Positions 3,861-57,634 of a stretch of DNA of 62,869 bases are shown here, one piece after another. The stretch's first letter is position 1. Every line of letters begins with the position of its first letter. The position numbers and the translations under genes were made by a program. The DNA is from Gemmatimonadota bacterium (GTDB taxonomy: Bacteria > Gemmatimonadota > Gemmatimonadetes > Longimicrobiales > Gaopeijiaceae), in assembly GCA_022822425.1 (NCBI GenBank), contig JAJEBS010000119.1, positions 1 through 62,869 of the forward strand, in the 5' to 3' direction. The notes under the pieces are model-generated. The model saw only the letters and a program-made list of their open reading frames with translations, did no database searches and was not told where the DNA came from.

Positions 3861-4092
3861 GGTGCCTGAGTGCTCGCTGGAGTGTGCCGGATCCGGTTCC
3901 CGTGGGGCGTCCCGTCCCGGCTTGGCGGGCACCCCTCCGCGCACATCGGCAGGAGCCTTCACGCGGCGACGCTGCAAGCTCTGTGGCGAGGGGTGGATGG
4001 GCAAGGGAGGAGGAAGCGATGCAATCGGAGATTGGCCAGCCGCGCGCCTGCTGCGGGGACCGGGCAAGAGGTTCCTTCACCGACTGACAATC

Positions 4093-4121
4093 TTGCAACT
4101 CAGGAATACCATACCGATATT
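4093..4121 (+). promoter_or_regulatory. Possible promoter for the DUF4143 ATPase gene
   Basis: TTGCAA and GATATT are separated by 17 bases in an AT-richer stretch just before the start codon. The -10 box matches the sigma-70 consensus at 4 of 6 positions. The predicted transcript would begin within a few bases of the ATG, so it would be nearly leaderless. Confidence 0.3.
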
Positions 4122-4129
4122 GCAGACTT

Positions 4130-11969: not shown

Positions 11970-12236
11970 GGTGTGTTCTCCCCGGGGTCGTGTCGGCGAT
12001 GGCGCGGTGCGGTGCCGCGCCCGCTCGCCGGTTGGCTTCTGACTGAATAGACGCACGAGCCGGCGAAAGGACGCAACCGGCCGGCGGAAGCCCCGGCGGC
12101 CGACACCCGGTGGACGACACTCCGTGGCGGAAGGCGGCGCGCCGCGGTAGGCTTGGGAGTCCCTCAGAGAACCTGGACGCGGGATCGGCGCACCAGATCC
12201 CCGGATCCTTCGCCACATCTCCGCAAGCGACTCCGC

Positions 12237-13454: not shown

Positions 13455-13519
13455 AGCCGCCCGTCGAGCGCCTCGACGAATCTGCACAGGCTCCTCATCA
13501 TTTGCACACGGAGAACGCA

Positions 13520-13948
13520 ATGAAGAATCCCCCCGAAGGCTGGCCCAGAATCACGCCCGCCGTGTTCTACGATGACGCCGCAGCCGCGATCGACTGGCTG
13601 ACCCGAGCCTTCGGATTCACGGTTCGCGTACGCGTGGAGAACGACGACGGACAGATCGTCCACTCGCAGCTTGCCATGAACGGCGGCCTCATCATGGTGG
13701 GGCAGGCGGGCCTGACGCCCGGCCGCACGTATCCCCGCTCTCCGCAGGCCGCCGGGGGAGCCAACACGCAGGCGCTGTGCGTCTTTGTGGACAATGTCGA
13801 CGCCCACTGTGAGCACGCTCGCGAGGCCGGCGCCAAAATCACGACCGAGCCGGCGACCCAGGACTACGGCGAAGGCTACTGGACGGAACGCACCTACGAA
13901 GCCCGCGACCCCGAGGGACATCACTGGTGGTTCCTGCAGCGCCTGTGA
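13520..13948 (+). CDS. VOC (glyoxalase/PhnB-like) family protein
   Basis: This 142-residue protein has two beta-alpha-beta-beta-beta halves typical of the vicinal oxygen chelate fold: VFYDDAAAAIDWLTRAFGF at the start and VDNVDAHCEHAREAGAKI in the second half, ending in ARDPEGHHWWFLQ. Such proteins include glyoxalases, dioxygenases and antibiotic-binding proteins; the reaction cannot be inferred. The ATG at 13520 follows a GGAGAACGCA ribosome-binding site. It lies 65 bases after the MFS gene on the same strand and may be cotranscribed with it. Confidence 0.82.
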   Translation: MKNPPEGWPRITPAVFYDDAAAAIDWLTRAFGFTVRVRVENDDGQIVHSQLAMNGGLIMVGQAGLTPGRTYPRSPQAAGGANTQALCVFVDNVDAHCEHAREAGAKITTEPATQDYGEGYWTERTYEARDPEGHHWWFLQRL

Positions 13949-14021
13949 GAGCGGCGGGCCTCTAAAGAGGTTTCCGCGTGTGTCTCCCCGCGGGCGGCTA
14001 TGCCGTCTCCCCCCGTGATCG

Positions 14022-43899: not shown

Positions 43900-44066
43900 A
43901 GACAGGTCGCGTTCGCCGAGGCGCAGCCCAGCCGTCCGGCCTCCTTGGTCGGTCCGCCAGGTGGTGGCCGGGTCGAGTCGCGACGTGCCAGGCGGCTCCG
44001 GTTCTGGCGGCCGCGGCGATTCGTTGGTTATCGTCCTCGTGCGGATTCCTCGAGCTGGAGCGTGCC

Positions 44067-46121
44067 ATGCAGCGGCTGACCGTCCTCGCGTCTCTGACCC
44101 TCCTGTCGACCTCTGTGCTCGCGCCCGACCGGGCGCATGCGCAAGCCGGCGCCGAGAGCGTCGTGCGGCTTGAGGCGGTACCCTCGTCCGTAGTGGTGAT
44201 GATGGGCGAGGAAGTCCCGTTCGAGGTGCGCGCGCTCGACGCCCAGGGGCGCGTGGTGGCGGACGCCCAGGTGCGTACGGTGGCGCCCCGGGCTGCGGCG
44301 ACCGTGCGGGGCGGCACGGTCCGCGGGGGGACGGCGGGCGAGTACGAGATCGTGGTGACGCTGCTGACGCCGCCCGGATACGAAGGAACGCCGCCCGGCC
44401 TGCGCGTGCCGCTCACGGTGCTGGCTCCCGAGGTCGCGACGGTGGAGGTCACGGCTGAGCCCGGTCGCCTCTATCAGGGGACCACCCTCCGCCACACCGC
44501 CGCCGCGCGCCACGGGGACGGATCGGTGCGTCCGGATCCGGTCGTGTCGTGGTCGAGCTCCGATCCGTCGGTCGCCACAGTCGATCGCTTCGGCTACGTG
44601 ACCGCGACCGGCACGGGCGCGGTCACCATCCGGGCCGACGTGGAGGGGGTGGTCGGGGCGGCAGCCTACGACGTGGCCGCGTTCCCGGCGGCCTCGCTGG
44701 AGATCACCGGGCTGGCCGACGAGGTGCGCACCGGTGACGTGCAGCACCTCACCGCGGTGGCGCGCGACGCGTCCGGCGAGGTGGTGGGCGACGTGCCCGT
44801 CACATGGACCCACACGGCCGTGCCCGACGCGGACATGATCGCGCCCAGCGCACCCGGGCAGATCGCGCGCGGGCGCTTCGTCGCGGACGTGCCCGGCGTG
44901 TACACGATCGTCGCCAACGCAGGCCCGCTGGCGGCGCGCGCGACCCTCCAGGCCGTTTCCCGCGACGTCGTGCGCGAGATGACCATGGTGGGGAAAGGGA
45001 GCACGGCCACGGTGCGCACCACCGACTTCTGGGTGTTCGAGGGGCTGGACGGCCGCGACTACGCCCTCACGGGCGCCAAGATGTCGGACGGGTACGCCTA
45101 CGCCTGGGACGTCACCAATCCGGCCGCCATCTTCAAGACCGACTCGCTGCAGGTGGACGCGCGCGCGGTCAATGACGTGAAGGTCTCTCCCGACGCCCGC
45201 TACGCCACCCTCACCCGCGAGGGCGCCTCCAACCGCCGCAACGGGGTCGTCATCCTCGACCTGGCGGACCCGGCCCACCCGGTGATCGCATCCGAGGTGG
45301 TCGAGGGGCTCACCGGCGGCGTCCACAACGCCTTCCCGGACGAGGACTACGCCTATGTGCTCTCCGCCGGCGACAAGTACGTCATCATCGACATGGCCGA
45401 CATCTACAACCCGCGCGTGGTGGGCGAGTACAATCATCCCGACAGCCGCCTGCACGATGTCTGGGTCCACGACGGCATCGCCTATTCGGCCGAATGGGAG
45501 AAGGGCATGGTGGCCGTGGACGTCGGCAACGGGCGCTGGGGCGGCACCCCGGAGAATCCCGTGCTGATCGCCGAGCTCGCGGTGCCGACCGGCACCACGC
45601 ACGCCATCTTCCCCTATCGCTCGCAGTCCACGGACCGGTTCTACGTCTTCCTCGGCGACGAGAACATGCAGAGGAGGGGGCTGGCCAACGAGGGGCCGCG
45701 CGCGGGCGGCACGTATCAGCTTCCGTACGACCCGGAGACGGGGATGAACGGCGTGCCGCTCGCGACCCAGGGCTACATCCAGGTGGTCGATTTCACCGAT
45801 CCCGACAACCCCGAGATGGTCGCCCGCTACGAGGTCACCGAATACGGCACCCACAACATCTGGGTCGAGGACGACATCCTCTACCAGGCGTATTATGAGG
45901 GTGGGCTGCGCATCGTCGACGTTTCCGGCGAGCTGATGGGCAACCTGTATACGCAGGGCCGCGAGATCTCCGTCCACAAGTCCACCGACGTGAACGGATG
46001 GGTGCCCAACTCGACCATGGTCTGGAGTGCGATGCCCTTCAAGGGACACGTCTTCTTCTCCGACACCAACTCCGGGCTCTGGTCGGTGAAGGTGGAGCCG
46101 CCCCAGCGGCCGGTGTCATAG
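44067..46121 (+). CDS. Secreted Ig-like (Big_2) and LVIVD-repeat protein
   Basis: The 684-residue protein has a signal peptide cleaved near AHAQA. Two or three bacterial Ig-like domains follow (about 35-300, for example VVSWSSSDPSVATVDRFGYV, the Big_2 pattern). The second half consists of LVIVD-type repeats (GVVILDLADPAHPVIASEV, KYVIIDMADIYNPRVVGEY, IQVVDFTDPDNPEMVARY, GGLRIVDVSGE) that probably form a propeller. Such proteins act outside the cytoplasm with unknown roles. The stop lies inside or just before the start of qhpG, so the two are probably cotranscribed, which suggests a part in amine oxidation. The 167 bases upstream show no clear promoter. Confidence 0.82.
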   Translation: MQRLTVLASLTLLSTSVLAPDRAHAQAGAESVVRLEAVPSSVVVMMGEEVPFEVRALDAQGRVVADAQVRTVAPRAAATVRGGTVRGGTAGEYEIVVTLLTPPGYEGTPPGLRVPLTVLAPEVATVEVTAEPGRLYQGTTLRHTAAARHGDGSVRPDPVVSWSSSDPSVATVDRFGYVTATGTGAVTIRADVEGVVGAAAYDVAAFPAASLEITGLADEVRTGDVQHLTAVARDASGEVVGDVPVTWTHTAVPDADMIAPSAPGQIARGRFVADVPGVYTIVANAGPLAARATLQAVSRDVVREMTMVGKGSTATVRTTDFWVFEGLDGRDYALTGAKMSDGYAYAWDVTNPAAIFKTDSLQVDARAVNDVKVSPDARYATLTREGASNRRNGVVILDLADPAHPVIASEVVEGLTGGVHNAFPDEDYAYVLSAGDKYVIIDMADIYNPRVVGEYNHPDSRLHDVWVHDGIAYSAEWEKGMVAVDVGNGRWGGTPENPVLIAELAVPTGTTHAIFPYRSQSTDRFYVFLGDENMQRRGLANEGPRAGGTYQLPYDPETGMNGVPLATQGYIQVVDFTDPDNPEMVARYEVTEYGTHNIWVEDDILYQAYYEGGLRIVDVSGELMGNLYTQGREISVHKSTDVNGWVPNSTMVWSAMPFKGHVFFSDTNSGLWSVKVEPPQRPVS

Positions 46122-47770
46122 GCGCAACCGGACGGATCCTCGACGCCGTCATCATCGGCGGCGGTCCCGCCGGCTCGGCGGCAGCCCGCCTGCTCGCGCT
46201 CTGGGGGCATTCGGTTGTTCTTCTGACGCGGCCCCCGACCGGCCGTCCCGCGCTCGCCGAGTCCGTCCCTCCCAGCACGCGCAAGCTCTTCACCCTGCTG
46301 GGGGTCGCGCACAGAATCGACGACGCGGGCTTCTTCCCGGCGCGGGGCAATCTCGTTCGGTGGGGCGATGACCCGCTCCGGCGCGCCGACTTCGCGCCCG
46401 GCGCCGCCGGTCATCACGTGGTTCGCGACGTCTTCGACGCGCTGTTGCTGGACCTCGCGGAAGAAGCGGGAGCCGAGGTGCGGCGGAATGCGAAGGTGCT
46501 GCGACCGGTGCGGCCCAGCGCTGCCGGCGACGGAGAAGGAGAGCCGTCACAACGTGTCGAATACGAGAGCGCGCGTGGTGGCAGGGCGACCCTCCGAGCC
46601 CGCTTCATGCTGGACTGCTCCGGCCGCTCCGGAGTGATCGCCAACCCCGATCTGCGCGTCCACGACCAGGCCAACGCCACCGTCGCGCTGGCCGGGGTGT
46701 GGCGAGCGAACGCCGCCGACTCCCCCGCCGAGCCCTGCACGCTGGTTGAGAGCTACCGCGACGGCTGGGCCTGGTCGATGCCGGTATCGGACACCCGCCG
46801 CTACCTGACCATGATGATCGACCCCCGCCGGACCGCGCTGCTGAAGGGCCGGGGCCGGCGCAGCCTCTACCTGGCCGAGGTGGAGAAGACCCGGGAAGCG
46901 CGCCGCCTGGTGGCCGCGGCCCGCCTGGTGAGCGACATCAGCGGACACTCCGCTTCCCAGTACACCGCCGCCCGGTTCACCGGCGAGGGGTTCCTGCTGG
47001 TCGGAGACGCGGCCAGCTTCGTCGACCCGCTCGCCTCCGTGGGGGTCAAGAAGGCGCTCGCCTCCGCCTGGCTTGCCTCGGTGGTGGTCCACACCTGCAT
47101 CTCGACGCCCGGCATGCGGGATGTGGCGCTCGAGTTCTTCGAGGGCCGCGAGCGGGCAACCTGGCTCGCCCATCGGCGTCACACCGCCCGGTACTACCGC
47201 GAGGCGGCTGCGGCCCACGGCCACGGCTTCTGGAGCGCCCGCGCGGCGGCAATCGGCGACGTCCCCGGGGCCATGGCGTCAGCGGGGCCAACCCCGGTGG
47301 ACGGTGCGCCTTCCCCCGACGACCAGACTTCCGGCGGATCCCCGTCAGGGGCCCCCGCGACCTCTCCCGCCCTCGATCCGGCCGCCGAAGTACACATACC
47401 GGTCCCGAACGAACCGGATATCACCGCCCTGCGCACCGACCCCGACGTCCTGCGCGCCTTCAACGATCTTCGAGCGGCCCCCTCCATTCGCCTGCGCCCC
47501 GCGCCCGGCCTGCGCCGCCTCCGGCTACCCGCCGTGCGCGGCCGCCGCATCGTCCTGGACGAACACCTCGCTTCTCCTGCGCTCCCGGATGGGGTGCGCC
47601 ATCTAAGGGACGTGGATCTGCCTCCCCTGGTCGACATGGCTGGCGCCCACGATCAGGTCCCGGACCTCTACCAGGCCTACCTGGAGCGCGTCGCCACCGT
47701 CGCGCTGCCGGACTTCCTCGGTGCACTCTCGGTCCTCCTCGGCAAGGGGATGCTGAAGAACGAGCCGTAG
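45998..47770 (+). CDS. qhpG: FAD-dependent monooxygenase of cysteine-tryptophylquinone formation (QhpG-like)
   Basis: The conserved part begins near 46139 with a Rossmann FAD motif DAVIIGGGPAGSAAA. It continues with HHVVRDVFDALLLDLAEEAG, MLDCSGRSG and GFLLVGDAASFVDPLASVGVKKAL, as in tryptophan-halogenase-like flavoproteins. QhpG hydroxylates the target tryptophan of the cross-linked gamma subunit before it becomes a quinone. The presence of all other qhp genes nearby supports the name. The listed ATG overlaps the LVIVD gene by 124 bases and may not be the true start; no better ATG, GTG or TTG follows before the domain. About 180 C-terminal residues after the FAD domain include a low-complexity linker and look like an extension. 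Confidence 0.75.
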   Translation: MGAQLDHGLECDALQGTRLLLRHQLRALVGEGGAAPAAGVIGATGRILDAVIIGGGPAGSAAARLLALWGHSVVLLTRPPTGRPALAESVPPSTRKLFTLLGVAHRIDDAGFFPARGNLVRWGDDPLRRADFAPGAAGHHVVRDVFDALLLDLAEEAGAEVRRNAKVLRPVRPSAAGDGEGEPSQRVEYESARGGRATLRARFMLDCSGRSGVIANPDLRVHDQANATVALAGVWRANAADSPAEPCTLVESYRDGWAWSMPVSDTRRYLTMMIDPRRTALLKGRGRRSLYLAEVEKTREARRLVAAARLVSDISGHSASQYTAARFTGEGFLLVGDAASFVDPLASVGVKKALASAWLASVVVHTCISTPGMRDVALEFFEGRERATWLAHRRHTARYYREAAAAHGHGFWSARAAAIGDVPGAMASAGPTPVDGAPSPDDQTSGGSPSGAPATSPALDPAAEVHIPVPNEPDITALRTDPDVLRAFNDLRAAPSIRLRPAPGLRRLRLPAVRGRRIVLDEHLASPALPDGVRHLRDVDLPPLVDMAGAHDQVPDLYQAYLERVATVALPDFLGALSVLLGKGMLKNEP

Positions 47771-47811
47771 GCGGATCTGCCCCCCCCGCCGACCGTCAGG
47801 CGGGATCCGCC
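47770..47811. terminator. Two-part hairpin between convergent genes
   Basis: GGCGGATC (47770-47777) pairs with GATCCGCC (47804-47811), and inside it CCGCC (47786-47790) pairs with GGCGG (47799-47803) around an 8-base loop, with a C-rich bulge on one side. It spans the stop codons of qhpG and the convergent SRPBCC gene and has no U tract, so it would be an imperfect intrinsic terminator. Confidence 0.45.
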
Positions 47812-48437
47812 GACTCCCCCGTGTAGAACGCGATGGTGCGCCTCGCCGCGGCCTGCGCCGCCGCGGGATTCGCTTCGGCCTCTATTGCCGCCCGTGCCCA
47901 TCCTTCGCCGCTGGCCCGGATGAACGCCCTGCCGTCCCGGGAGGTCGCAAAGGCCACCTCATCCGGCTTCGGTGCGTCCGGGTGCGCGAGGTGGAACGCG
48001 AGCCCCAGAAGAGCCATCTCCCAGCCGACGCCGGTCGCCCCCGGTCCGTATCGGCTCCAGTGTTCCGACAAGCGCTGCGTGTGCGTCAGCCTGAGCCGCG
48101 CGCGGCCCGCTCCGCCCTGCGAGAAGCCTGCCTCCACCCAGCTCACGTCCCCGCCGAACTCCCATGTGAGCGCGAAGTGCCACGGCCGCCCGCAGGCCGT
48201 GATCACCCCACCCGCATTGCCTTCGAGTTGATATCGGCCCTTGGGCTTTAGTTCTCCGCTGACCGGCAGAAACCACCGCGGGAGGCGATCATCACTTGTT
48301 ACGGCGTCCCACAGATCGTCCAGGGATGTCGCGTAGCCGCGAGACAGGGTGACCGCGCGAGCGGGCTCTCCATCACGATCCAGCACCGACACCGAGCGCT
48401 CCGTGGCGCCCAGGTGTTCCGGGACGTCGAAGTTCAT
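47796..48437 (-). CDS. SRPBCC (AHSA1-like) domain protein
   Basis: The 213-residue protein has the START-like opening of the activator-of-Hsp90 (AHSA1) family (VTLSRGYATSLDDLWDAVTSDDRLPRWFLPVSGEL, later GGVITACGRPWHFALTWEF). A C-terminal helical segment ends in RRTIAFYTG. These proteins bind small hydrophobic ligands or act as stress-related proteins; the role is unknown. It lies between qhpG and the PIN toxin gene, antisense to the qhp genes, and is 12 bases from the toxin gene stop. Confidence 0.78.
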   Translation of the reverse strand: MNFDVPEHLGATERSVSVLDRDGEPARAVTLSRGYATSLDDLWDAVTSDDRLPRWFLPVSGELKPKGRYQLEGNAGGVITACGRPWHFALTWEFGGDVSWVEAGFSQGGAGRARLRLTHTQRLSEHWSRYGPGATGVGWEMALLGLAFHLAHPDAPKPDEVAFATSRDGRAFIRASGEGWARAAIEAEANPAAAQAAARRTIAFYTGESADPA

Positions 48438-48449
48438 GAGTACTCCCGG

Positions 48450-48872
48450 TTATGGGGCACCATCCGAGACATCGCGAGGTGTGATGACCGAGCCAGGTCG
48501 CGGAGGGCTCTCCAACAGCAGCCGGTCCCCGGTGATGAGCCGGCAGCCGGACTGGCTTGCGAGCAACGCCCAGAGATGGTTGTCACCCGACTCGGGAGCG
48601 GCATCGCCGTCGTCTGGCTCACGCCACACCGCATTCGCCGCCAGGTCGGTCAGAAGTCCGTCAATCTCGTCGTCGGTTCGCTGGTGAAACCGCACTACCC
48701 CGGGGCGTCGCAGCACCGCCGAATACTCCGAAAGCAAGGCCCCTGACATCAGGTAGAGCAGGCGACCATCGAGCATGGCGTCGAGAGTCTGCGACGTCGG
48801 GCTGCGCGGATCGGCACTGATCACTCCGGACACGACGACATTGGTATCCACGACGAAGACCTTTCGGGTCAA
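48450..48872 (-). CDS. PIN-domain toxin of a putative toxin-antitoxin system
   Basis: The 140-residue protein has the PIN core: Asp9 in FVVDTNVVVSG, LSEYSAVL with its Glu, and ESGDNHLWALL followed by CRLITGDRLLL. It belongs to the branch annotated as putative toxin component, PIN family. It is likely an RNase inhibited by the upstream RHH protein, whose stop overlaps its ATG (ATGA, 4 bases). Confidence 0.83.
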   Translation of the reverse strand: MTRKVFVVDTNVVVSGVISADPRSPTSQTLDAMLDGRLLYLMSGALLSEYSAVLRRPGVVRFHQRTDDEIDGLLTDLAANAVWREPDDGDAAPESGDNHLWALLASQSGCRLITGDRLLLESPPRPGSVITPRDVSDGAP

Positions 48873-49114
48873 TCGTCCTTCCCCGCTCGATACCGCCTGG
48901 TTTCGCGCACCGCGATGGCCATCGCCTCTTCATCGCCCAAACCGGCGCTGGAGCGTGCGCGGGCGACGATTTCGCGTGCCGTTTCGGAGGGAAGGATTCC
49001 CCTGAATTCGAGACTCTCTTCGATGATCGCGCCCATCGAGCGCCCCTGCCGCGCTGCGGCCTCTCTCAATGCGCGGTGTGTACGGTCCGTCAAGCTGATT
49101 GTGAGGCGTGGCAT
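48869..49114 (-). CDS. Ribbon-helix-helix antitoxin
   Basis: The 81-residue protein opens with PRLTISLTDRTHRALREAAARQGRSMGAIIEESLEF, a ribbon-helix-helix DNA-binding domain, followed by an acidic tail suited to binding the toxin. The ATG at 49114 was chosen because the RHH strand starts there; the frame is open upstream but without domain sequence. It precedes the PIN toxin in the same operon and probably represses its own promoter, where an inverted repeat lies. Confidence 0.83.
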   Translation of the reverse strand: MPRLTISLTDRTHRALREAAARQGRSMGAIIEESLEFRGILPSETAREIVARARSSAGLGDEEAMAIAVRETRRYRAGKDD

Positions 49115-49154
49115 GACACGAACTTCCGGGTTGCGGCGACGGTGCCCAGACATG

Positions 49155-49178
49155 GATGCACCATAGCACCAGTGCATC
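49155..49178. promoter_or_regulatory. Inverted repeat, candidate operator of the RHH/PIN operon
   Basis: GATGCAC and GTGCATC are separated by 10 bases, 41-64 bases upstream of the antitoxin start. On the minus strand the spacer contains TGCTATGGT, an extended -10-like element, so the dyad would cover the promoter. It is also about 65 bases from the divergent qhpA promoter. Confidence 0.45.
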
Positions 49179-49241
49179 ACCGACGCCAACCGGAGCATCC
49201 AACAAGCTGATTCGCGGTTGTCCCCGGCGGGATCGCCTCGT

Positions 49242-49270
49242 TTGTCTCCGACCCCCACAGGCGATATCAT
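49242..49270 (+). promoter_or_regulatory. Probable promoter of the qhpADCBF operon
   Basis: TTGTCT (4 of 6 consensus positions) and TATCAT (5 of 6) are separated by 17 bases. The predicted start of transcription is about 50 bases before the qhpA ATG. It lies in the 211-base space between the antitoxin and qhpA genes. Confidence 0.5.
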
Positions 49271-49325
49271 CCCGTATGCCGCATACCCCGATAAACAATA
49301 GTTTCTCCAACCCACGGGTCCCCGC

Positions 49326-51122
49326 ATGGTTCAGCGCCCTCGCTTGACCCGCACGCGCCTGTTCGCGGGGATGTTCCTCGCCGCGGGCGCATTCGTCGCT
49401 GCCGGGGCCGCTGCCCAGAGCGACGAAGAAGGCTTCCCCATCGAGCACGAGACCATCCGCGCCCGCTGCGCGGCGTGCCACCTCCCGGATTCGGAGGGGC
49501 GCATGTCGCGCATCTCCTTCGAGCGCAAGACCCCGGAGGGATGGCAGGGCTCGCTGCAGCGCATGATCTCGCTCAACGGCGTGACCCTCGCGCCCGAGGA
49601 GGCGCGCGACATCGTCAAGTACCTCTCGGACCGGCAGGGGTTGGCGCCCGAGGAGCTGCGTCCCGGTCTCTTCGAGGTCGAGAAGAGGATGATCGACCAC
49701 CGCTATCTGGCGGACACCGACGTCGAGTTCACCTGCATCCAGTGCCATTCGATGGGGCGGGTGATCACGCAGCGGCGGACGCGTGAGGAGTGGGAGCTCC
49801 TGATGTCGACGCACCGCGGCTACTATCCGCTCGCCGACTTCCAGGCCTTCCTGCGCATGGGGCCCACGCCCGACCAGCCCGGCCCGGACGGGGAGCCGCC
49901 GGACACGCGCCAGCCCATGGAGCGCGCAGTCGACCACCTTTCCGAGGTCTTCCCCCTCCACACCCCCGAGTGGGCGGCATGGTCGGCGACCATGCGCCCG
50001 CCGCGCCTGGAGGGCACATGGGTCCTCTCCGGTCACCAGCCCGGACGCGGCGCGCTCTACGGCACGGTGACCATGGGGGGCGGCGGCGAACGGGACGCGT
50101 TCGTCACCCGGGTCAGCTACACGTTTCCGGCCACCGGGGAGACCGTCACCCGGCGGGGCCGCGGGCTGGTGTACACGGGGTACCAGTGGCGGGGCCGCTC
50201 CTTCGAGTCCGATGAAGCCGATGGGGCGATGCGCGAGGTGATGGTCGTCGAGCGGGACATGAACGAGATCAGCGGGCGCTGGTTCCGGGGCGACTACGAC
50301 GAGATCGGCATGGATGTGAGCCTGACCCGGGTAGCCGGTTCTCCCGTCGTCGCGGGGGTCCATCCCCGCGCCCTTCAGTTGGGCGGCGGCGAGCGCGAGG
50401 TGCGCGTCTTCGGGGCCGGATTCGCGGACGGCGTCGGGCCCGGAGATGTGGATCTGGGCCCCGGGCTGACCGTCAACAGAGTGATCAGCGCCTCCTCCGA
50501 AGAGATCGCCCTCAACGTGACCCTGGCGCCCGACGCGGTCCCCGGTGGGCGCGACGTTTTCGTCGGCGGCGCGAGCCTGCCGCAGGCCGTGGTCGTGCAC
50601 GACGGCATCGACCGCATCCAGGTGCTGCCGCGCACGGGCATGGCCCGCCTGGGCGGCATCGTATTCCCGAAGGGCTACCAGCAGTTCGAGGCGGTCGCCT
50701 TCGACGACGGACCCGACGGGCGTCCAAGCTCCGACGACGACCTGGAGCTGGGGACGGTCGAGGTCGACTGGAGCCTCGAGGAATACGCGGCGACCTTCGA
50801 CGACAACGACATCGAGTTCGTCGGCTCGATCGACCAGACCGGACTTTTCGTGCCCGCCGCCGACGGCCCCAACCCGGACCGCGACCGAAACCGCAACAAC
50901 GTCGGCGACGTGTGGGTGGTCGCCACGCTGGCGCAGGACGACAACGGGGACCGTCCCCTGCGGGCCCGCGCCCACCTGGTCGTCACCGTCCCGCTCTACC
51001 TGCTTTTCGACCCGGGAGCCAACGTGAGTACGGGTGCGAGCCCGGATCCGGCGGCAAGCTCGAACGGTCGCGGAAGCCGAACCCCGGGACCGAGTCCCGG
51101 AATGGGAGGGAGCCCGAAATGA
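49326..51122 (+). CDS. qhpA: Quinohemoprotein amine dehydrogenase alpha subunit (di-heme)
   Basis: The 598-residue precursor has a signal peptide ending near GAAAQS and two heme-binding motifs, CAACH at 48-52 and CIQCH at 137-141, in a cytochrome domain. A middle region (about 175-350, GTWVLSGHQPGRGALYG) and Ig-like beta domains to about 560 follow. This is the domain order of the QHNDH alpha subunit, which passes electrons from the quinone cofactor through two c-type hemes to an external acceptor in the periplasm. The last 40 residues are a Ser/Gly/Pro-rich tail. The stop overlaps the qhpD start (ATGA). Weak ribosome-binding site. Confidence 0.93.
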   Translation: MVQRPRLTRTRLFAGMFLAAGAFVAAGAAAQSDEEGFPIEHETIRARCAACHLPDSEGRMSRISFERKTPEGWQGSLQRMISLNGVTLAPEEARDIVKYLSDRQGLAPEELRPGLFEVEKRMIDHRYLADTDVEFTCIQCHSMGRVITQRRTREEWELLMSTHRGYYPLADFQAFLRMGPTPDQPGPDGEPPDTRQPMERAVDHLSEVFPLHTPEWAAWSATMRPPRLEGTWVLSGHQPGRGALYGTVTMGGGGERDAFVTRVSYTFPATGETVTRRGRGLVYTGYQWRGRSFESDEADGAMREVMVVERDMNEISGRWFRGDYDEIGMDVSLTRVAGSPVVAGVHPRALQLGGGEREVRVFGAGFADGVGPGDVDLGPGLTVNRVISASSEEIALNVTLAPDAVPGGRDVFVGGASLPQAVVVHDGIDRIQVLPRTGMARLGGIVFPKGYQQFEAVAFDDGPDGRPSSDDDLELGTVEVDWSLEEYAATFDDNDIEFVGSIDQTGLFVPAADGPNPDRDRNRNNVGDVWVVATLAQDDNGDRPLRARAHLVVTVPLYLLFDPGANVSTGASPDPAASSNGRGSRTPGPSPGMGGSPK

Positions 51123-52705
51123 GCACAGCCGACATCACTTCGCCGGGCGGTCTGTCGGTGAGCGCCGCGACCGCGACACCGGTTACTGGCGCAGCCACCG
51201 AGGCTGCCAACGGGGCCGCTGCGCGCGCCAACGGGGCCCCGGCGCCCGCGCCGCCCCTCTCGTCCGGCGCCTCGCCGGCAGCCCCGGGTCTCCTCACTCC
51301 GGGGGAGTTCCACGCCTTCCAGGCGGACGGCGGGACGTTCCTCTACCTGGTGCCGAGCGCGGCGATCTTCCGCATGGACGATGCGTCGCTCGCGGTGCTC
51401 CGGGCGCTCGAGACGGCCAACCGCACGCCCGCCGAACTGGTGGGACTACTGGAGAGCCGATTCCCCGCCGAGGAGGTCCGGGACCGCGTCGACGAGCTGC
51501 TGGGGGTGCGTGCCATCGGCCACCTCGGCAAGCCCGCCCCGCCCCCTCCCGACGTGCTGCCGCCCAAGGGCTTCCCGCTCACCACAATGGTCCTGAACGT
51601 CACCAGCAAGTGCAATCTGGCCTGCACGTACTGCTACGAATACGGCGACGACCGCATCGTCGAGGCCGACTCCAAGCCCCGCTACATGGACCTCGAGACC
51701 GCCCGCGAGAGCGTCGACTTCATGTTCGAGCAGGGCGGGTCGAACCGCCTGGTGCACCTGACCTTCTTCGGCGGTGAGACCCTACTCAACTTCAAGCTGC
51801 TCAAGGAAACCGCCACCTACGCGCGCCAGCGCGCCCGCGAGGTCGGGAAGGAGGTCGATTTCAGCCTCACCACCAACGCCACCCTGCTCAAGCCCGAGAT
51901 CGTCGACTGGCTGGCGGAGAACCGGGTGGGCGTGACGGTCTCCATCGACGGCCCGCGCGAGGTGCAGGACGGCCTGCGCGTCTTCTCCAACGGCATGGGC
52001 AGCTACGACATCATCCTGCCCAGGATCAAGGATCTGCTGGCGCGCCACCGCACCCGCCCCATCGGCGCGCGCGTTACCCTGACCAGCCAGAATCTTGACG
52101 TCAAACACATCTTCAGGCACCTGACCGAGGAGATCGGGTTCTGGGAGGTCGGCTTCGCGCCGGTGACCAGTTCGTCGTGCCGCGACTTCTCCATCTCGGA
52201 CGCCGGCTACGACAAGATGCTCGGCCAGTTCGAGGAGCTCGCCCACGACTTCCTCGAGCACGCCTGCGCCGACCGCCATCACGGCTTCTCCAACGTGAAG
52301 GACACCCTGGAGGAGATCCACAAGGGCGTGAGCAAGGCGTACCCCTGCGGCGCCGGGCTCGGGCTGATGGGGGTGGCGACCGACGGCGACGTCGCGCTCT
52401 GCCATCGTTTCGCCGGCTCGGACGAGCACAAGATCGGGTCGGTGTCGGAGGGCGTCGACGTCGACGTGCAGTACGACTACCTGAAGAAGCACCACATCAA
52501 CAGCAAGACCGACTGCCGCACCTGCTGGGCCCGTCCCATCTGCGCCGGCGGATGCTATCACGAGGCCCATACCCGGTACGGCACCACCGCAACCCCGAAC
52601 CTCCACTTCTGCGAGTGGGTTCGGAGTTGGACCGACACATGTCTTCGAGTTTACGGAGCCATCTCGGAGCGCAACCCGGCATTCCTGGCGCGTTTCGACG
52701 CCTGA
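51119..52705 (+). CDS. qhpD: Radical SAM/SPASM peptide-modifying enzyme (QhpD)
   Basis: The 528-residue protein has a low-complexity start (about 1-55) and an RRE-like segment (about 60-140). The radical SAM cluster motif is Cys165-x3-Cys169-x2-Cys172 in KCNLACTYCYEYG. A SPASM domain binds auxiliary Fe-S clusters (CGAGLGLMGVATDGDVALC, then CRTCWARPICAGGCYHEA and FCEW). QhpD forms the Cys-Asp/Glu thioether links in the gamma subunit, acting on the leader-bearing peptide in the cytoplasm. The ATG at 51119 overlaps the qhpA stop by 4 bases. It lies 40 bases upstream of its substrate gene. Confidence 0.94.
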   Translation: MSTADITSPGGLSVSAATATPVTGAATEAANGAAARANGAPAPAPPLSSGASPAAPGLLTPGEFHAFQADGGTFLYLVPSAAIFRMDDASLAVLRALETANRTPAELVGLLESRFPAEEVRDRVDELLGVRAIGHLGKPAPPPPDVLPPKGFPLTTMVLNVTSKCNLACTYCYEYGDDRIVEADSKPRYMDLETARESVDFMFEQGGSNRLVHLTFFGGETLLNFKLLKETATYARQRAREVGKEVDFSLTTNATLLKPEIVDWLAENRVGVTVSIDGPREVQDGLRVFSNGMGSYDIILPRIKDLLARHRTRPIGARVTLTSQNLDVKHIFRHLTEEIGFWEVGFAPVTSSSCRDFSISDAGYDKMLGQFEELAHDFLEHACADRHHGFSNVKDTLEEIHKGVSKAYPCGAGLGLMGVATDGDVALCHRFAGSDEHKIGSVSEGVDVDVQYDYLKKHHINSKTDCRTCWARPICAGGCYHEAHTRYGTTATPNLHFCEWVRSWTDTCLRVYGAISERNPAFLARFDA

Positions 52706-52745
52706 GCCGGATCCACCGCGACCGAGTCAACCAGGAGAGAGACCC

Positions 52746-53168
52746 TTGGCACTGAAACCGATCAACCGCAAAGCGGACCGGATGGTGACCTACCTGGCGA
52801 ACCAGGGCGACGTGCCCCCGGCCGAGCAGATGGCGGGTCCCGTGGGGCCGGCCGCGGGCGAGGTCGAGGGCGGCGCCGACGCGAACGCCGAGGATGTCGT
52901 CGCGCTCGGGGGACGGCTTCCCGAGGTGCCGGAGATCCCGCACATCCCGCTGGGATGCTCGCTGGTCTTCGCGCCGGGCTGGGAGGTAGACGAGGCGGGC
53001 GGCACCGCCGGGCTCTGCCAGCCGGTCGAGCGCGACCTCTTCGACTGCCATCTGGCCTGCTTCTGGCCGGCCCACGTCCCGGACCAGCTCAACCACAGCC
53101 CGGACTGGACCGGCAAGTGCGCGGCGGCGCAGAACGACTGGCGCAAGCTGGAGATGATCTTCCCGTAG
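52746..53168 (+). CDS. qhpC: Quinohemoprotein amine dehydrogenase gamma subunit precursor (CTQ peptide)
   Basis: The 140-residue precursor starts at a TTG with AGGAGAG upstream. Its leader begins MALKPINRKADRM, as in other QhpC leaders. The mature part has every cross-linking position: Cys71-Glu80, Cys91-Asp97 and Cys105-Asp113 for the thioether bridges, and Cys101-Trp107 for the cysteine-tryptophylquinone. The spacing (9, 6, 8 and 6) equals that of the Paracoccus protein. Placing the first bridged Cys at mature residue 7 implies a leader of about 64 residues, longer than the 28 known for Paracoccus, with an acidic Gly/Ala-rich middle. An extra Cys125 is present. It is the redox centre that oxidises primary amines. 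Confidence 0.95.
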   Translation: MALKPINRKADRMVTYLANQGDVPPAEQMAGPVGPAAGEVEGGADANAEDVVALGGRLPEVPEIPHIPLGCSLVFAPGWEVDEAGGTAGLCQPVERDLFDCHLACFWPAHVPDQLNHSPDWTGKCAAAQNDWRKLEMIFP

Positions 53169-53205
53169 GCGGGTAAGCCTCCCTTCCTCCACGAAACCTG
53201 ACAAA

Positions 53206-54324
53206 ATGGCAGACATGTCTGACAAAATGTCATACCTGGCGGTGCTGATCGCCCTCCTCCCCTCGGCGCTGGCCGCACAGGAGGTCCGCTCGGGCGGCAA
53301 CGGCACCATCTACATGGGGGCCTACAACGAGGCCGTCTACGTCATCGACGAGGCGACGCTCGAGGTCACCGAGCGCATCCCGGTCACGACCGGCATCCCC
53401 AACCTGATGCAGCTCTCCCCGGACAACCGCACCATGTACGTGCGCGACGCCGCCATGGAGCACATCGAGGTGGTCGATCTGGTCGAGGGGCGCTCGATCG
53501 ACTCCTTCACCCTGAGCGAGGGCAACACGAAGGTACGCATCCGCTCGATGGCGGTGGATCCGGGCGGCGAATACGTGCTGCTCGGCGCGCGGAGCTACAC
53601 CAAGCTGCTCGACCGCTTCGAGATCGGCGAATTCTCGATCCTTCGCGTCGACCTCGATTCGCGCGAGGTGACCGACACCGTGCCGAGTTCGGTGGGCGAG
53701 CAGCGCCAGGGCGCCAACCTCATGTTCTCGCCGGACGGCGACCTGCTCTACTTCTTCGGCCGCGACATCATCGCCGTCGAGACCGAGAACTTCACCGAGG
53801 TCGACCGCTGGGAGCTGTCGCAGCCGCTGGAGGAGGGGCTCGGACGCATGAACCTGAGCTTCCAGCGCAGTCCCTATGACGAAGAGGGCATCTTCACGAA
53901 CCTCTTCCGGATGACGGATCCCGTGCAGGGCCGGCAGATGATGGGCATCGCGCGCGTGAACCTCGCCGAGCAGGATGTCGACTTCTACACCCTGGGGCCC
54001 AGCGAGCGGGTGAGCTTCGCGCTGGCGCCGGGTGGACGCAAGGCGTACGGCCTGCGCTCGGAGATCGGCTTCTACCAGTTCTGGACCTTTGATCTGGAGG
54101 GGCGCCGGGTCGAGAGCCGGGTCGAGTTCCCGGGGCGGCCGCGCATGTCGCTGGTGCCGAGCTCCAATGGCGAACTGCTCTACATCTACAACGCCGGCAA
54201 CACCATCGACGTCTACGACGCCGACACCCACGAGCTGCTGCGCACGGTGTGGCTGGACGCCGACATGACGCGCTTCCTGCTGGTGCCGGGGACTGGCGCC
54301 GCGGACGACTCCGGCGGTTCGTAG
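53206..54324 (+). CDS. qhpB: Quinohemoprotein amine dehydrogenase beta subunit (propeller)
   Basis: The 372-residue protein has a short signal peptide (hydrophobic core SYLAVLIALLPSALAAQ) and seven YVTN-like blade repeats (YMGAYNEAVYVIDEATLEVTERI, LLGARSYTKLL, LYIYNAGNTIDVYDADTHELL), as in the QHNDH beta subunit that contacts gamma and shapes the active site. Two ATGs are possible starts, at 53206 and 53227; both follow the same CTGACAAAATG context. The end overlaps the qhpF frame by 76 bases. Confidence 0.92.
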   Translation: MADMSDKMSYLAVLIALLPSALAAQEVRSGGNGTIYMGAYNEAVYVIDEATLEVTERIPVTTGIPNLMQLSPDNRTMYVRDAAMEHIEVVDLVEGRSIDSFTLSEGNTKVRIRSMAVDPGGEYVLLGARSYTKLLDRFEIGEFSILRVDLDSREVTDTVPSSVGEQRQGANLMFSPDGDLLYFFGRDIIAVETENFTEVDRWELSQPLEEGLGRMNLSFQRSPYDEEGIFTNLFRMTDPVQGRQMMGIARVNLAEQDVDFYTLGPSERVSFALAPGGRKAYGLRSEIGFYQFWTFDLEGRRVESRVEFPGRPRMSLVPSSNGELLYIYNAGNTIDVYDADTHELLRTVWLDADMTRFLLVPGTGAADDSGGS

Positions 54325-56111
54325 CAGACGTCCGCCGGCGTCTTCAAAAGCCACTGTCCGCGTCTCCCGAGCCTCGGTCCGGACGCTTCCTCGACCGCGA
54401 AATCCGCTGGGCGCTGGGGTTCGTCCGCCCCTACGCGAAATGGCTGGTCCTGGTGCTCGCCCTGAGCCTGGCCGGCACCGCCCTCTCGCTCTACATCCCC
54501 TACCTCTCCAAGGACCTGGTGGACACGGCCCTCCTGGGGCAGGACGGCGCCGCGCTCACCCGCATCGTGGCGCTCTTCGCGGGGATCACGGTGGTGTCGT
54601 TCGGGCTGAACGTGGTTGCGGGGCTCCGCTACACGCGCACGTCGGCGGACATCCTCTTCGACATGCGCCTCGCCCTGTACGGGCACCTGCAGCGGCTTTC
54701 GCCCCGGTTTTACGCGCGCACGCCCGTGGGCGACATCATGTCGCGCATCAACAACGACATCGGCGAGATCCAGCGCATCGTCTCCGAGAGCCTGCTCGCG
54801 TGGCTGGGCAACATCGCGTATCTGCTGGGGACGGTGGGGATCCTGCTCTGGCTGGATGCCCGGCTTTTCCTGGTGAGCCTCGCGATCCTGCCGCCGTGTC
54901 TGTGGGCGCTGGTGCGCTACAGGAGGCGGCTTGAGAGCATCACCTCCGAGCTGCGCGAGCGGAGCGCCGGGATCGGCAGCTTCCTGATCGAGACCATCCT
55001 GGGGCTCAAGCTGACCGTGGCGTCGAACGCGCAGCGGCGGGAGCAGAGGCGGTTCCGGCGGAAGAACGACGCTTTCATCCGGACGCTGATGTCGATGCGG
55101 CTGCTGACGTACCTCGCGGGCGGGCTGCCCGGGCTGATCCTGGCGGGCGGGGTGGCGGTGATCTTCCTGTACGGGGGCCAGCGGGTGATCGCGGAGGCGA
55201 TCACGATGGGGACGTTCGTCGCCTTCATGGCCTACCAGATGCGGCTGCTGGGACCGATCCAGGGGCTGATGGGGCTGTACGCGAGCCTCGCGACGGCGCG
55301 GGTCTCGCTCGGGCGCGTGCATGTGATTCTGGACACCCCGGTCGAGGTGCGCGACCCGGCGCGGCCGGAGAGCGCGGAGGGGCTGCGCGGGGAGTTGCGG
55401 CTGGAGGGGGTGAGCTTTTCGTTCGGGCGCGGGGAGCCCGTGCTGGACGGGGTCGACCTTGTCGTGGGGGAGGGGGAGGTGGTGGCGGTTGTGGGCGCGA
55501 GCGGGAGCGGCAAGTCCACCATCGTGGACCTGCTGTCGCGGCAGCTCGACCCGGATGCCGGCCGGATCCTCCTGGGCGGCCGCGACCTGCGTGCGCTCCG
55601 GCTGGAGGCCGTGCGCGCGCGGGTGGTGGCGGTGGAGCAGGAGCCGTTCCTGTTCAACACCACCATCGCGGAGAACATCCGCTACGGCCGGCCGGGGGCC
55701 TCGGACGGGGAGGTGGAGGCAGCCGCGCGCGCGGTGGGGCTGGACGCTTTCCTGGCGACCCTGCCGGACGGACTGGACACGCAGGTGGGCGAGCAGGGGC
55801 GGGAGCTGTCGGTGGGGCAGCGCCAGCGGGTCGCGGTCGCGCGCGCCTTCCTGGCCGACCCGGCGGTGCTGGTGCTCGACGAACCCACCTCGTCGCTCGA
55901 CCCCGCCTCCGAGCGCGCGCTGATGGAGGGCTACCAGGTCGTGATGCGCGGGCGCACGACCATCCTGGTCTCCCACCGTCTCGCGCTCGCCCGGCGGGCC
56001 GACCGGGTCGTGGTGCTGGAGCGCGGCCGCATCGTCGAGGAGGGCACCGCCGCGGAGCTGCTGGCGCGGCACGGGACGTTCGCCCGGCTGTTCGGGAGGG
56101 AGGGGGGGTAG
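54249..56111 (+). CDS. qhpF: ABC transporter, exporter type (QhpF-like)
   Basis: The 620-residue half-transporter has a six-helix exporter membrane domain (about 50-340) and an ATPase domain with Walker A GASGSGKST, signature LSVGQRQRVAVARAF and Walker B VLVLDEPTSSLD. QhpF exports the modified gamma subunit, which has no Sec signal. The GTG at 54249, within qhpB, is the only start in frame before the membrane domain; a start closer to residue 40 would need a non-standard codon. The gene ends directly at the antisense PIN gene. Confidence 0.88.
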   Translation: MAGRRHDALPAGAGDWRRGRLRRFVADVRRRLQKPLSASPEPRSGRFLDREIRWALGFVRPYAKWLVLVLALSLAGTALSLYIPYLSKDLVDTALLGQDGAALTRIVALFAGITVVSFGLNVVAGLRYTRTSADILFDMRLALYGHLQRLSPRFYARTPVGDIMSRINNDIGEIQRIVSESLLAWLGNIAYLLGTVGILLWLDARLFLVSLAILPPCLWALVRYRRRLESITSELRERSAGIGSFLIETILGLKLTVASNAQRREQRRFRRKNDAFIRTLMSMRLLTYLAGGLPGLILAGGVAVIFLYGGQRVIAEAITMGTFVAFMAYQMRLLGPIQGLMGLYASLATARVSLGRVHVILDTPVEVRDPARPESAEGLRGELRLEGVSFSFGRGEPVLDGVDLVVGEGEVVAVVGASGSGKSTIVDLLSRQLDPDAGRILLGGRDLRALRLEAVRARVVAVEQEPFLFNTTIAENIRYGRPGASDGEVEAAARAVGLDAFLATLPDGLDTQVGEQGRELSVGQRQRVAVARAFLADPAVLVLDEPTSSLDPASERALMEGYQVVMRGRTTILVSHRLALARRADRVVVLERGRIVEEGTAAELLARHGTFARLFGREGG

Positions 56112-56537
56112 TCAGGCCCCCGGCAAAGGTCGCCGGCGGGAAGCGAACACTTCCACGGAAACCGGCAGCCCGGGAGTTCCGGCCAGACGGGCGTCCGTCG
56201 TAAGCAACGGGGCATCGAGGACTTCGGCCAGCGTGACGTATGCTGCGTCGTAGGAGGTCAGGTTGTATCGCCAGGACCAGATTCTCGGCAGTAACGGTCC
56301 GTGCGGGTGCCGGTGCAGATCGAGATCCCTCAGATTGTCGATGCCGCAGGCGATGCGGTCGGGCGGGATGATGTCGGTCAGTTCGTAACGCCGGAGGACA
56401 CTGAGGACCTCGATATCCACGAGCTCGGGACTGTGCAGCGAGAGCCGGGGATCGGCGATCCTCGTGAGAATCTCCATCCCCGACCGGGTTCCGAGCACCA
56501 GCTCTACGACCGCGGAGGCGTCCAGGACCGCGATCAC
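56112..56537 (-). CDS. vapC: PIN-domain toxin, VapC-like
   Basis: The 141-residue protein has the PIN core with Asp6 in VLDASAVVELVLGT, Glu43 in ELVDIEVLSVLRR and Asp97 in SYDAAYVTLAE, followed by LLTTDARLA. This matches VapC toxins of the FitB-like branch. It starts 6 bases after the antitoxin stop and lies antisense between qhpF and qhpE. Its coding sequence abuts the end of qhpF exactly. Confidence 0.88.
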   Translation of the reverse strand: MIAVLDASAVVELVLGTRSGMEILTRIADPRLSLHSPELVDIEVLSVLRRYELTDIIPPDRIACGIDNLRDLDLHRHPHGPLLPRIWSWRYNLTSYDAAYVTLAEVLDAPLLTTDARLAGTPGLPVSVEVFASRRRPLPGA

Positions 56538-56543
56538 GTCGGG

Positions 56544-56774
56544 CTAACGCTTCTCCCGCTCCTCTCGCAGGATCTTGCGCGGAGGGGGGTCGAGTTCGAT
56601 GGGTGGCAACCGGGAGATTCTTGCCAACAACTCGTCGCGCGTCGGTTTCTCGAGCAGCCGTTCGATCTCGCGGAGTACGTAGTCGGACATGGAAAGGCCG
56701 AGATGCGCAGCGCGGGCCTTGAGCCGACGATGGACGGCATCGGGGACGTTGCGAATCTGAACCATCTTGTACAT
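56544..56774 (-). CDS. vapB: FitA/CopG-type antitoxin
   Basis: The 76-residue protein has the FitA-like opening VQIRNVPDAVHRRLKARAAHLGLSMSDYVLREIERL, a ribbon-helix-helix DNA-binding domain, and a short C-terminal arm ending in PPRKILREER. The ATG at 56774 or one at 56765 may start it. It is upstream of the PIN toxin in one operon. Confidence 0.87.
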   Translation of the reverse strand: MYKMVQIRNVPDAVHRRLKARAAHLGLSMSDYVLREIERLLEKPTRDELLARISRLPPIELDPPPRKILREEREKR

Positions 56775-56869
56775 GTGTATAGCATGGTTTCATGTGGTTC
56801 GCATGTCAACGATGTCGCCCTCCCCGCCGCGCTTGGTGGCGGGAGCCTCTACGCTATATCATCAATCTC

Positions 56870-57634
56870 ATGACCCCAATGGAAGGATGGGAACAGCGCG
56901 AGCTGCGGCTGGACGATGGTGCTGTCGTGGAGCATGACGGCAAGGACATCCGCATCGCGGTGGTGGACAGCGGCGTTCATGCGGCGCACCCCCACGTGGG
57001 TGGGGTAGCCGGTGGCGTGGCCATCGGGTCGGACGGATCGGAAGCCGACGACTACGTCGACTGGCTCGGCCACGGGACGGCCGTTGCCGCCGCAATCAGG
57101 GAGAAGGCGCCCGGAGCCGAGTTGTTTGCCGTGAAGGTGTTCGGCGACCGGCTGGCCACCAACTGCGATGCCCTGGTGCGAGCCATCGAATGGGCGGCCG
57201 AGCATGAGGCACGGCTCGTCAACCTCAGCCTCGGCACGTCGAACCCGGCGCACGAAGCCAGGCTGGCCGCGGCGGTGAAGGAGGCAGCGGAGCGCGGCGC
57301 TCTCGTCGTGTCGGCCCGGCAGAGCGATGGCGTGCGCTGGCTCCCGGGGTCAATCCCCGGCGCCATCGGCGTGCTGCTCGACTGGAGCTGTCCCCGCCAC
57401 GCGGTGCGGGTGGGAACCGACCACCAGGGAGCCCGGACCTTCCTCGCCTCGGGTTTTCCGCGACCGATTCCCGGCGTCTCTCCCGCGCGCAACCTGGGTG
57501 GGATCAGCTTCGCGGTGGCCAACGTAACGGGCGTACTTGCCCGGCTGATCGAGGCGGAGCCGAAGGCGGGCAGCCCGGGTCAGGTCTTCGAGTTGGCCCG
57601 CCGTCACGCCGTCCTGCGTCCGGCCAGCCAATAG
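56870..57634 (+). CDS. qhpE: Subtilisin-like serine protease (QhpE-like leader peptidase)
   Basis: The 254-residue S8-family protein has Asp33 in IAVVDSGV, His68 in GHGTAVAAAI and Ser213 in GGISFAVANVTG as its triad. It lacks a signal peptide and a pro-domain, as expected of a cytoplasmic enzyme that removes the QhpC leader. The oxyanion-hole Asn of subtilisins is not seen; the matching strand reads VVSARQSDG. The ATG at 56870 begins a compact protein; the frame is open 26 codons further upstream with unlikely sequence. It is separated from qhpF by the antisense VapBC pair, so it probably needs its own promoter. The final 31 bases overlap the convergent permease gene. Confidence 0.85.
   Translation: MTPMEGWEQRELRLDDGAVVEHDGKDIRIAVVDSGVHAAHPHVGGVAGGVAIGSDGSEADDYVDWLGHGTAVAAAIREKAPGAELFAVKVFGDRLATNCDALVRAIEWAAEHEARLVNLSLGTSNPAHEARLAAAVKEAAERGALVVSARQSDGVRWLPGSIPGAIGVLLDWSCPRHAVRVGTDHQGARTFLASGFPRPIPGVSPARNLGGISFAVANVTGVLARLIEAEPKAGSPGQVFELARRHAVLRPASQ

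Follow-up and report, generated by a model that had tools for sequence, protein, structure and literature searches.

The locus considered here, a run of genes on contig JAJEBS010000119.1 (assembly GCA_022822425.1) of a Gemmatimonadota bacterium, raises the question of whether this host, which lies outside the Proteobacteria as an initial annotation of the DNA had allowed, carries a complete qhp gene set for quinohaemoprotein amine dehydrogenase (QHNDH), and in what respects such a set departs from those of Paracoccus and Pseudomonas. The whole stretch analysed, 62,869 nucleotides, is referred to below as the window, and statements drawn from papers cited by PMC number apply to those sections of each paper that were available. 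Judged from its sequence, the region 45998-57634 very probably holds a complete, intact-looking set, of a type that we call class II, for a periplasmic QHNDH together with the enzymes that build its cysteine tryptophylquinone (CTQ) cofactor. As a genome-scan find alone this is a well-known system in its usual gene order; what is new is the gamma subunit of class II, which has a fifth cysteine and a modular leader. The qhp features, all on the + strand, are as follows.

45998..47770, +: qhpG, flavin adenine dinucleotide (FAD) monooxygenase of the peptidyl-Trp dihydroxylase type (NCBIfam NF049967, alignment, start scan)
49326..51122, +: qhpA, alpha subunit with two c-type haem motifs (TIGR03908, four Pfam domains)
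51119..52705, +: qhpD, radical SAM/SPASM maturase for Cys-Asp/Glu thioethers (TIGR03906)
52746..53168, +: qhpC, whole gene, with a TTG start preceded by AGGAGAG
52746..52904, +: qhpC leader (alignment, motif)
52905..52937, +: 11-residue segment from the DVVA/L motif, the presumed cleavage place, to gamma-subunit residue 1
52938..53168, +: qhpC core, residues 1-76 (PF08992, 112.4 bits, cut-off 25; aligned to 1jju_C and 1jmx_G)
53118..53120, +: codon of Cys61, the class II cysteine (alignment)
53136-53138 and 53151-53153, +: Asp67 and Glu72, candidate acceptors for Cys61
53206..54324, +: qhpB, beta-propeller subunit (best NCBIfam match TIGR03907, below cut-off; position, relatives)
54249..56111, +: qhpF, ATP-binding cassette (ABC) exporter (PF00664 plus PF00005)
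56792..57634, +: qhpE, subtilisin-like processing protease (NF049966; Asp/His/Ser alignment)

Identification of the qhp genes

All seven qhp frames are open and keep their signature residues, with a third-position GC of 0.80 to 0.93, and the complete gene set that had been proposed for this region is borne out by NCBIfam and Pfam matches. QhpA (483.5 bits to TIGR03908, cut-off 274.35) is the di-haem protein that had been described, showing all four QhpA domains in Pfam and two CxxCH motifs, with four cysteines in total and none beyond the haem motifs. QhpD, likewise confirmed as a SPASM radical SAM protein, scores 556.5 bits against TIGR03906 (cut-off 453) and contains CxxxCxxC, and QhpC matches NF037958 with 118.1 bits (cut-off 50) as well as the Pfam family QH-AmDH_gamma. 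QhpF, in the expected place, is an ABC exporter of the MsbA type, with no QhpF-specific model among the best 25 of 191 families listed; a GTG at 54249, inside qhpB, is the sole conventional start found. QhpE gives 165.7 bits against NF049966 (cut-off 165), and its Asp/His/Ser triad positions are kept in the alignment; it has no signal peptide by eye, in agreement with the leaderless subtilisin first described, and a start at 56870 rather than 56792 is possible. Signal peptides were recognized by eye on QhpA and QhpB. The latter, annotated earlier as the propeller subunit, is cysteine-free, stands in the right position and has TIGR03907 as its best family match, but with 60.0 bits against a cut-off of 223.2. 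Against the class II profile, four class I QhpB proteins reach 39-60 bits, so the two classes differ as a whole.

The flavoprotein encoded by qhpG had been called halogenase-like, and it might be a halogenase relative with no part in CTQ formation, which would leave the cluster without a true QhpG. In a single-sequence search of PDB chains the halogenases 3e1t, 8zop and 3i3l (130, 114 and 108 bits) did rank above the QhpG structure 7ctq (67 bits), whereas the profile comparison favoured QhpG, with 240.1 bits to NF049967 (cut-off 240) against 124.4 to CmlS (NF033113, cut-off 900) and 106 and 99.9 to the LodB/GoxB models NF038171 and NF038174 (cut-offs 400). Moreover, a relative of this protein precedes qhpA in 42 of the 43 seven-gene rows of the survey described below, and the active-site GWxW is kept in an alignment of 11 class II and eight class I QhpG proteins (numbering after PMC7876137, mapped via the Pseudomonas nitroreducens protein). 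On the refuting condition set in the initial annotation, a closer match of the flavoprotein to unrelated families, these searches give a mixed answer. We judged the NCBIfam result to outweigh the PDB search and rejected the halogenase assignment, which we regard as very unlikely. Class II QhpG proteins have an insert before the C-terminal part, defined for the window relative to the Pseudomonas protein and largest in the window and in locus L007. The start of qhpG is uncertain, because ATG 45998, the only conventional in-frame start within 45998-46199, lies inside the end of an upstream LVIVD-repeat gene.

Several observations weigh against regarding the locus as a complete qhp set. The QhpB score lies under its cut-off, QhpG and QhpE exceed theirs by less than 1 bit, and a flavoprotein from a cluster free of QhpC exceeds the QhpG cut-off as well, so that passing it is no proof. 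In addition, the position of class I Arg70 is Asn in all 11 aligned class II QhpG proteins, and Glu42 is replaced in four of the 11, the window protein retaining it. Among the 30 flanking frames scanned with Pfam, no regulator, aldehyde dehydrogenase or cytochrome acceptor was found.

Two divergent forms were seen among the relatives. The QhpE-like frame of three Leisingera loci (L086, L120 and L121) aligns without the part holding the catalytic Asp, the His and Ser regions remaining, in an alignment confined to the profile envelope. In a Novosphingobium locus (L082, 12351-12806; W01:779880-780335), a divergent QhpG-like stretch of 50.6 bits, below the cut-off, lies between qhpB and the qhpF domain, and the class II QhpG profile gave no match there.

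Two classes of QhpC core

The core of the window QhpC was aligned to 1jju_C and 1jmx_G, chains from the QHNDH entries of Paracoccus (1jju/1pby) and Pseudomonas (1jmx/1jmz), systems for which 7ctq is the QhpG structure. C7, E16, C27, D33, C37, C41, W43 and D49 are in exact register, which supplies, as residues and not as bonds, the pairs of the C7-E16, C27-D33 and C41-D49 bridges and the CTQ pair C37-W43. The gamma-subunit precursor with all bridging residues that the initial annotation reported is thus present; the annotation missed a further cysteine, Cys61. In a first set of 79 QhpC rows, in which L001 is a copy of the window gene, the bridge and CTQ residues are intact throughout and every row has exactly five core cysteines, at 7, 27, 37, 41 and 61. 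The full set of 119 rows, which adds Acidobacteriota, more Gemmatimonadota and plasmid loci and includes some genomes twice, retains the known residues in 118, the exception being a decayed gene that has lost its N-terminal half (L112).

With that gene dropped, the other 118 rows collapse to 75 distinct cores. Class II comprises 67 distinct cores with Cys61 and Asp67, together with Asp72 (66 cores) or Glu72 (one, the window type), from Gemmatimonadota, Acidobacteriota and one Novosphingobium plasmid. Class I comprises nine distinct cores with four cysteines, Ala61, Asp67 and Gly or Gln at 72; eight are from Paracoccus, Pseudomonas, Cupriavidus and Leisingera plasmids and the ninth is 1jmx_G, 1jju_C being the P. 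pantotrophus core. This class I sample is small and comes from PDB chains and plasmid records, of which nine of the 26 with a QhpC match were examined. The classes never overlap at 14 of 70 columns (20, 23, 25, 30, 32, 36, 38, 39, 40, 42, 61, 65, 72 and 73), and among the distinct cores residues 72 and 36 are acidic in class II only. In a tree of 80 QhpD sequences (out of 115, near-copies having been removed) and three outgroups, 83 rows in total, class I (100/99) and class II (92/82) fall on opposite sides, as a single change, and the Novosphingobium plasmid copy and L087, from the Acidobacteriota sample, form a deep branch within class II. The bootstrap of this tree had not fully settled, and its root is unsure since the outgroups, which are very long, are not placed together on a single side.

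In the enzyme studied so far, all four gamma-subunit cysteines are in thioethers, three as Cys-Asp/Glu bonds that QhpD installs and the fourth within the CTQ (PMC7876137, PMC8172795). For class I, a mass loss of about 6 Da from the three QhpD bonds and the labelling of one cysteine by iodoacetamide have been published (PMC7876137). A fifth cysteine is undescribed in the available sections of the QHNDH and CTQ papers searched (PMC7876137, PMC6662431, PMC8172795 and PMC12124388), a set that leaves most subscription papers outside and is therefore no proof of novelty. We propose tentatively, at somewhat below an even chance, that class II QHNDH is a second architecture, in which QhpD would tie Cys61 through a fourth thioether to Asp67 or to the class-specific Asp/Glu72, giving five intrachain thioethers, and in which the leader would be a modular tag, its N-terminal end and protease site fixed and the linker between them free in length, whose removal leaves an N-terminal arm of 4-16 residues on the mature subunit. 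The class-specific Asp36 is a less likely third acceptor. The acceptor lies after the cysteine in all three known bonds, and the Cys61-Asp67 spacing (C-x5-D) equals that of Cys27-Asp33. A precedent comes from the PapA-PapB system of the ranthipeptide freyrasin, in which the QhpD homologue PapB is likewise a radical SAM/SPASM maturase making S-Cβ Cys-Asp thioethers, six of them in freyrasin (PMC8172795); the PapB model is the second best NCBIfam match of the window QhpD (NF047865, 288.5 bits, under the cut-off of 340), and the PapA product is a peptide, unlike the enzyme subunit on which QhpD acts. The six bonds made by PapB, the invariance of Cys61, the spacing of Asp67 and the confinement of acid 72 to one class support a fourth QhpD bond without demonstrating it.

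Alternatively, Cys61 may be un-cross-linked, as a buried or reactive free cysteine, or it may form a disulfide inside a dimer or to a different protein, so that the four known thioethers would be the only ones; we consider this slightly more probable than not. A change from Ala to Cys is small and might serve pure packing, and class I cores have Asp67 while lacking Cys61. Furthermore, the split between the classes is one event that involves 14 columns at once, and so the joint gain of Cys61 and acid 72 does not amount to repeated covariation, a point that tells directly against the fourth bond. On the other hand, Cys61 is kept in all 67 distinct class II cores, and an invariant free cysteine is unusual for a periplasmic subunit. 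Partners for a disulfide within the enzyme are also scarce: the cysteines of QhpA are haem-only in 69 of 75 rows, with four rows having an extra CX5C pair and two being Cys-less fragments, and 73 of 78 QhpB rows are free of cysteine, although extra cysteines do exist in the remaining five QhpB rows as in those four of QhpA. As neither protein offers a conserved partner, we rejected an intersubunit disulfide. The AlphaFold2 model of the gamma core, built from 47 rows, is unusable for this choice (mean predicted local distance difference test score 42.5, predicted template modelling score 0.28); perhaps its low confidence arises because cross-links hold the chain.

The QhpC leader

The leader of the window QhpC has 53 residues if it is cut after DVVA and 64 if it is cut at the known gamma-subunit residue 1, compared with a class I leader published as 28 residues (PMC7876137), which by our count ends within the EV.AM motif. 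All eight class I rows show N.KA close to the leader start and EV.AM at the cut, with 17 residues from N to E. Both ends recur in class II leaders, [DE]V.[AGR][LM] being present in 108 of 110 rows and missing from L065, where Gly replaces Asp, and from L111, truncated by a contig end. Between these ends lie 9 to 53 residues in class II (43 in the window), and from the cut motif to residue 1 there are 4 to 16 residues in class II (11 in the window) and 0 or 1 in class I. In class II, QhpE probably cuts after the conserved [DE]V.[AG].

Proposed maturation and function

The sequence of events that we suggest is taken from published Pseudomonas and Paracoccus work, and the same course in this host, the cut site and the substrates are extended to it by analogy. 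QhpC would be made with its leader, and QhpD would dock it and tie Cys7-Glu16, Cys27-Asp33 and Cys41-Asp49 (PMC7876137 for the mechanism). QhpG would then dihydroxylate Trp43 within a QhpC-QhpD-QhpG complex, QhpE would remove the leader, probably after the conserved motif, and QhpF would export the chain. Joined to di-haem QhpA and the propeller QhpB, the product is expected to be a periplasmic enzyme that oxidizes primary amines, with electrons leaving via the haems.

Gene order and antisense genes

The initial annotation regarded the cluster as rearranged, by reference to a Paracoccus order with E, F and G after an A-D-C-B core. With profiles made from the window proteins and their relatives, we searched 82 rows, namely 81 loci and the window itself, L001 being a piece of the window. 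At the thresholds used, all seven genes occur in 43 rows, and in 42 of these, the window included, the order is G-A-D-C-B-F-E, one having C-B doubled; in the odd row, L035, G lies downstream on the opposite strand. At least one gene is absent from each of the remaining 39 rows, in many cases because the stretch stops short, and no qhpE was found in at least 5.8 kb past qhpF in L015, L019, L021, L031 and L080. Leisingera plasmids share G-A-D-C-B-F-E, as determined with profiles for L086 and from annotation plus alignment for L120 and L121. On the Paracoccus plasmids L084, L119 and L122 a QhpG-like gene lies upstream of A on the opposite strand, contrary to the order assumed, and E precedes F on L084 and L122; that qhp gene arrangement, order and strand vary is known (PMC7876137). 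As the window order is the usual one in its group and is found in Leisingera too, it is no rearrangement of note.

The earlier observation that qhpG lies upstream and qhpE downstream, each set off by antisense genes, was correct. Antisense blocks occupy the G-A gap (47796-49114) and the F-E gap (56112-56774), and include two toxin-antitoxin-like pairs:

47796..48437, -: AHSA1/SRPBCC gene, antisense, between qhpG and qhpA (PF08327, 30.9 bits, cut-off 22.1)
48450..48872, -: PIN-type toxin-like gene, antisense (TIGR00305, 28.2 bits, just below the cut-off of 29.15)
48869..49114, -: likely cognate antitoxin, 81 residues, overlapping the PIN gene by 4 bases (frame; named by eye)
56112..56537, -: PIN-domain gene, antisense, between qhpF and qhpE (PF01850, 34.5 bits, cut-off 23.6)
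56544..56774, -: antitoxin-like frame immediately upstream of the second PIN gene (named by eye)

The AHSA1 gene occurs in eight rows (the window and seven relatives) and the first PIN gene in five, while the second PIN gene has ten matching rows, strong only in the window and L006, where the pair with its antitoxin recurs. The first antitoxin frame has a near-identical frame in L003 and a longer frame without an NCBIfam match. It could be supposed that insertions broke and rearranged a Paracoccus-type operon that is now partly degenerate, given the three antisense genes in one gap and the PIN/antitoxin pair in the other. However, the order is the group's usual one, none of the seven frames is interrupted or lacks its signature residues, and only some congeners have the PIN genes, so that we find this explanation scarcely credible; the antisense genes are best read as lineage-local insertions that separate G and E from the core without breaking any qhp frame.

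No family common to the group was found among 195 frames, many of them antisense shadows, in inter-qhp gaps of at least 600 bases; the recognizable clusters were PIN/antitoxin pairs, AHSA1, repeat-rich frames and lineage-local proteins. By clustering and by eye, toxin-antitoxin-like pairs recur in the G-A gap of L012, L017, L019, L021, L028, L031 and L080, in the B-F gap of L026, L028, L031 and L053 and in the F-E gap of L006.

By Pfam, the 30 flanking frames belong to metabolism, transport, peptidases and similar categories. None is visibly connected with amine oxidation, apart from an amino-acid permease gene that adjoins qhpE on the opposite strand. Upstream, the gene for an LVIVD-repeat/immunoglobulin-like protein (44052-46121) has relatives in eight rows, window included.

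Distribution across genomes

Counting the window's own genome each time, qhpC was found in eight of eight genomes searched from the genus, 40 of 96 from the family and 63 of 298 from the phylum, and the qhp system is reported from more than 1300 bacterial species (PMC7876137), so the initial description of it as rare does not hold. In the Acidobacteria sample (the phylum of L045), 11 of 199 genomes have qhpC, two of these (G331 and G332) having been chosen beforehand as carriers. The closest QhpD relatives are labelled Gemmatimonadetes, BD2-11 clade and Gammaproteobacteria; the last label, that of L005, is doubtful, its qhpC lying at the same coordinates as in a genome of the window's own genus.

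Some loci show duplication or decay. L064 (Acidobacteria UBA823, 11469-14356) carries the qhpC-qhpB pair twice in tandem (qhpC-qhpB-qhpC-qhpB), accompanied in the stretch by one qhpD, and each of the two QhpC retains all residues; L044 and L048 are two qhp clusters approx. 15 kb apart on one Acidobacteria contig. L051 has a second qhpA, and in L093 qhpA immediately follows qhpC. In L112 (genome G013, 3862-4182), approximately residues 38-76 of the decayed qhpC remain beside qhpB, and qhpA, qhpD and qhpE were not found in its 8.2 kb stretch.

Comparison with known systems

The window thus resembles the qhp systems of Paracoccus and Pseudomonas in its seven genes, its A-D-C-B core, the CTQ and three bridge residues in register, the two haem motifs, the subtilisin-like QhpE and an ABC exporter in the qhpF position. 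It differs in Cys61 with Asp/Glu72, in the longer leader, in the distance of QhpB from its family profile, and in a QhpG that has an insert and is nearer halogenases by single sequence. An AraC-type regulator is annotated beside the genes in Paracoccus pantotrophus, P. seriniphilus and Leisingera, whereas the window, as first noted, has none: no AraC gene is present on its contig, and both HTH_18 matches of its own genome are on other contigs.

In the CTQ oxidases LodA and GoxA, the cofactor is formed with the help of the flavoproteins LodB and GoxB, and the window QhpG scores far under the cut-offs for these. Separately, on each of two plasmids a QhpG-like flavoprotein gene and a radical SAM gene stand side by side, immediately following a gene whose product matches LodA_C weakly (22.4 and 25.2 bits, cut-off 25). 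In Rhizobium sp. CB3171 (L133, 3256-9751) the QhpD-like gene scores 328.6 bits to TIGR03906 (cut-off 453) and the flavoprotein 296.7 bits; in Novosphingobium sp. RL4 (L134, 4577-8395) a Radical_SAM gene adjoins a flavoprotein of 280.2 bits (cut-off 240). No QhpC is annotated alongside the former, and the one QhpC match of the Novosphingobium record is approx. 0.7 Mb away. These loci are possibly a hybrid peptidyl-quinone system, combining qhp-type maturases with a LodA-like substrate.

The available enzymology of QHNDH rests on Pseudomonas and Paracoccus. In the leader data, the distance from the N-terminal end of the tag to the cut motif ranges from 9 to 53 residues, a separation that is relevant to the way in which such maturases grip their substrates. 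The second clade, class II, common in Gemmatimonadota and also found in Acidobacteriota, offers a naturally occurring case in which to examine how a radical SAM maturase acting at several sites chooses its Cys-acid pairs.

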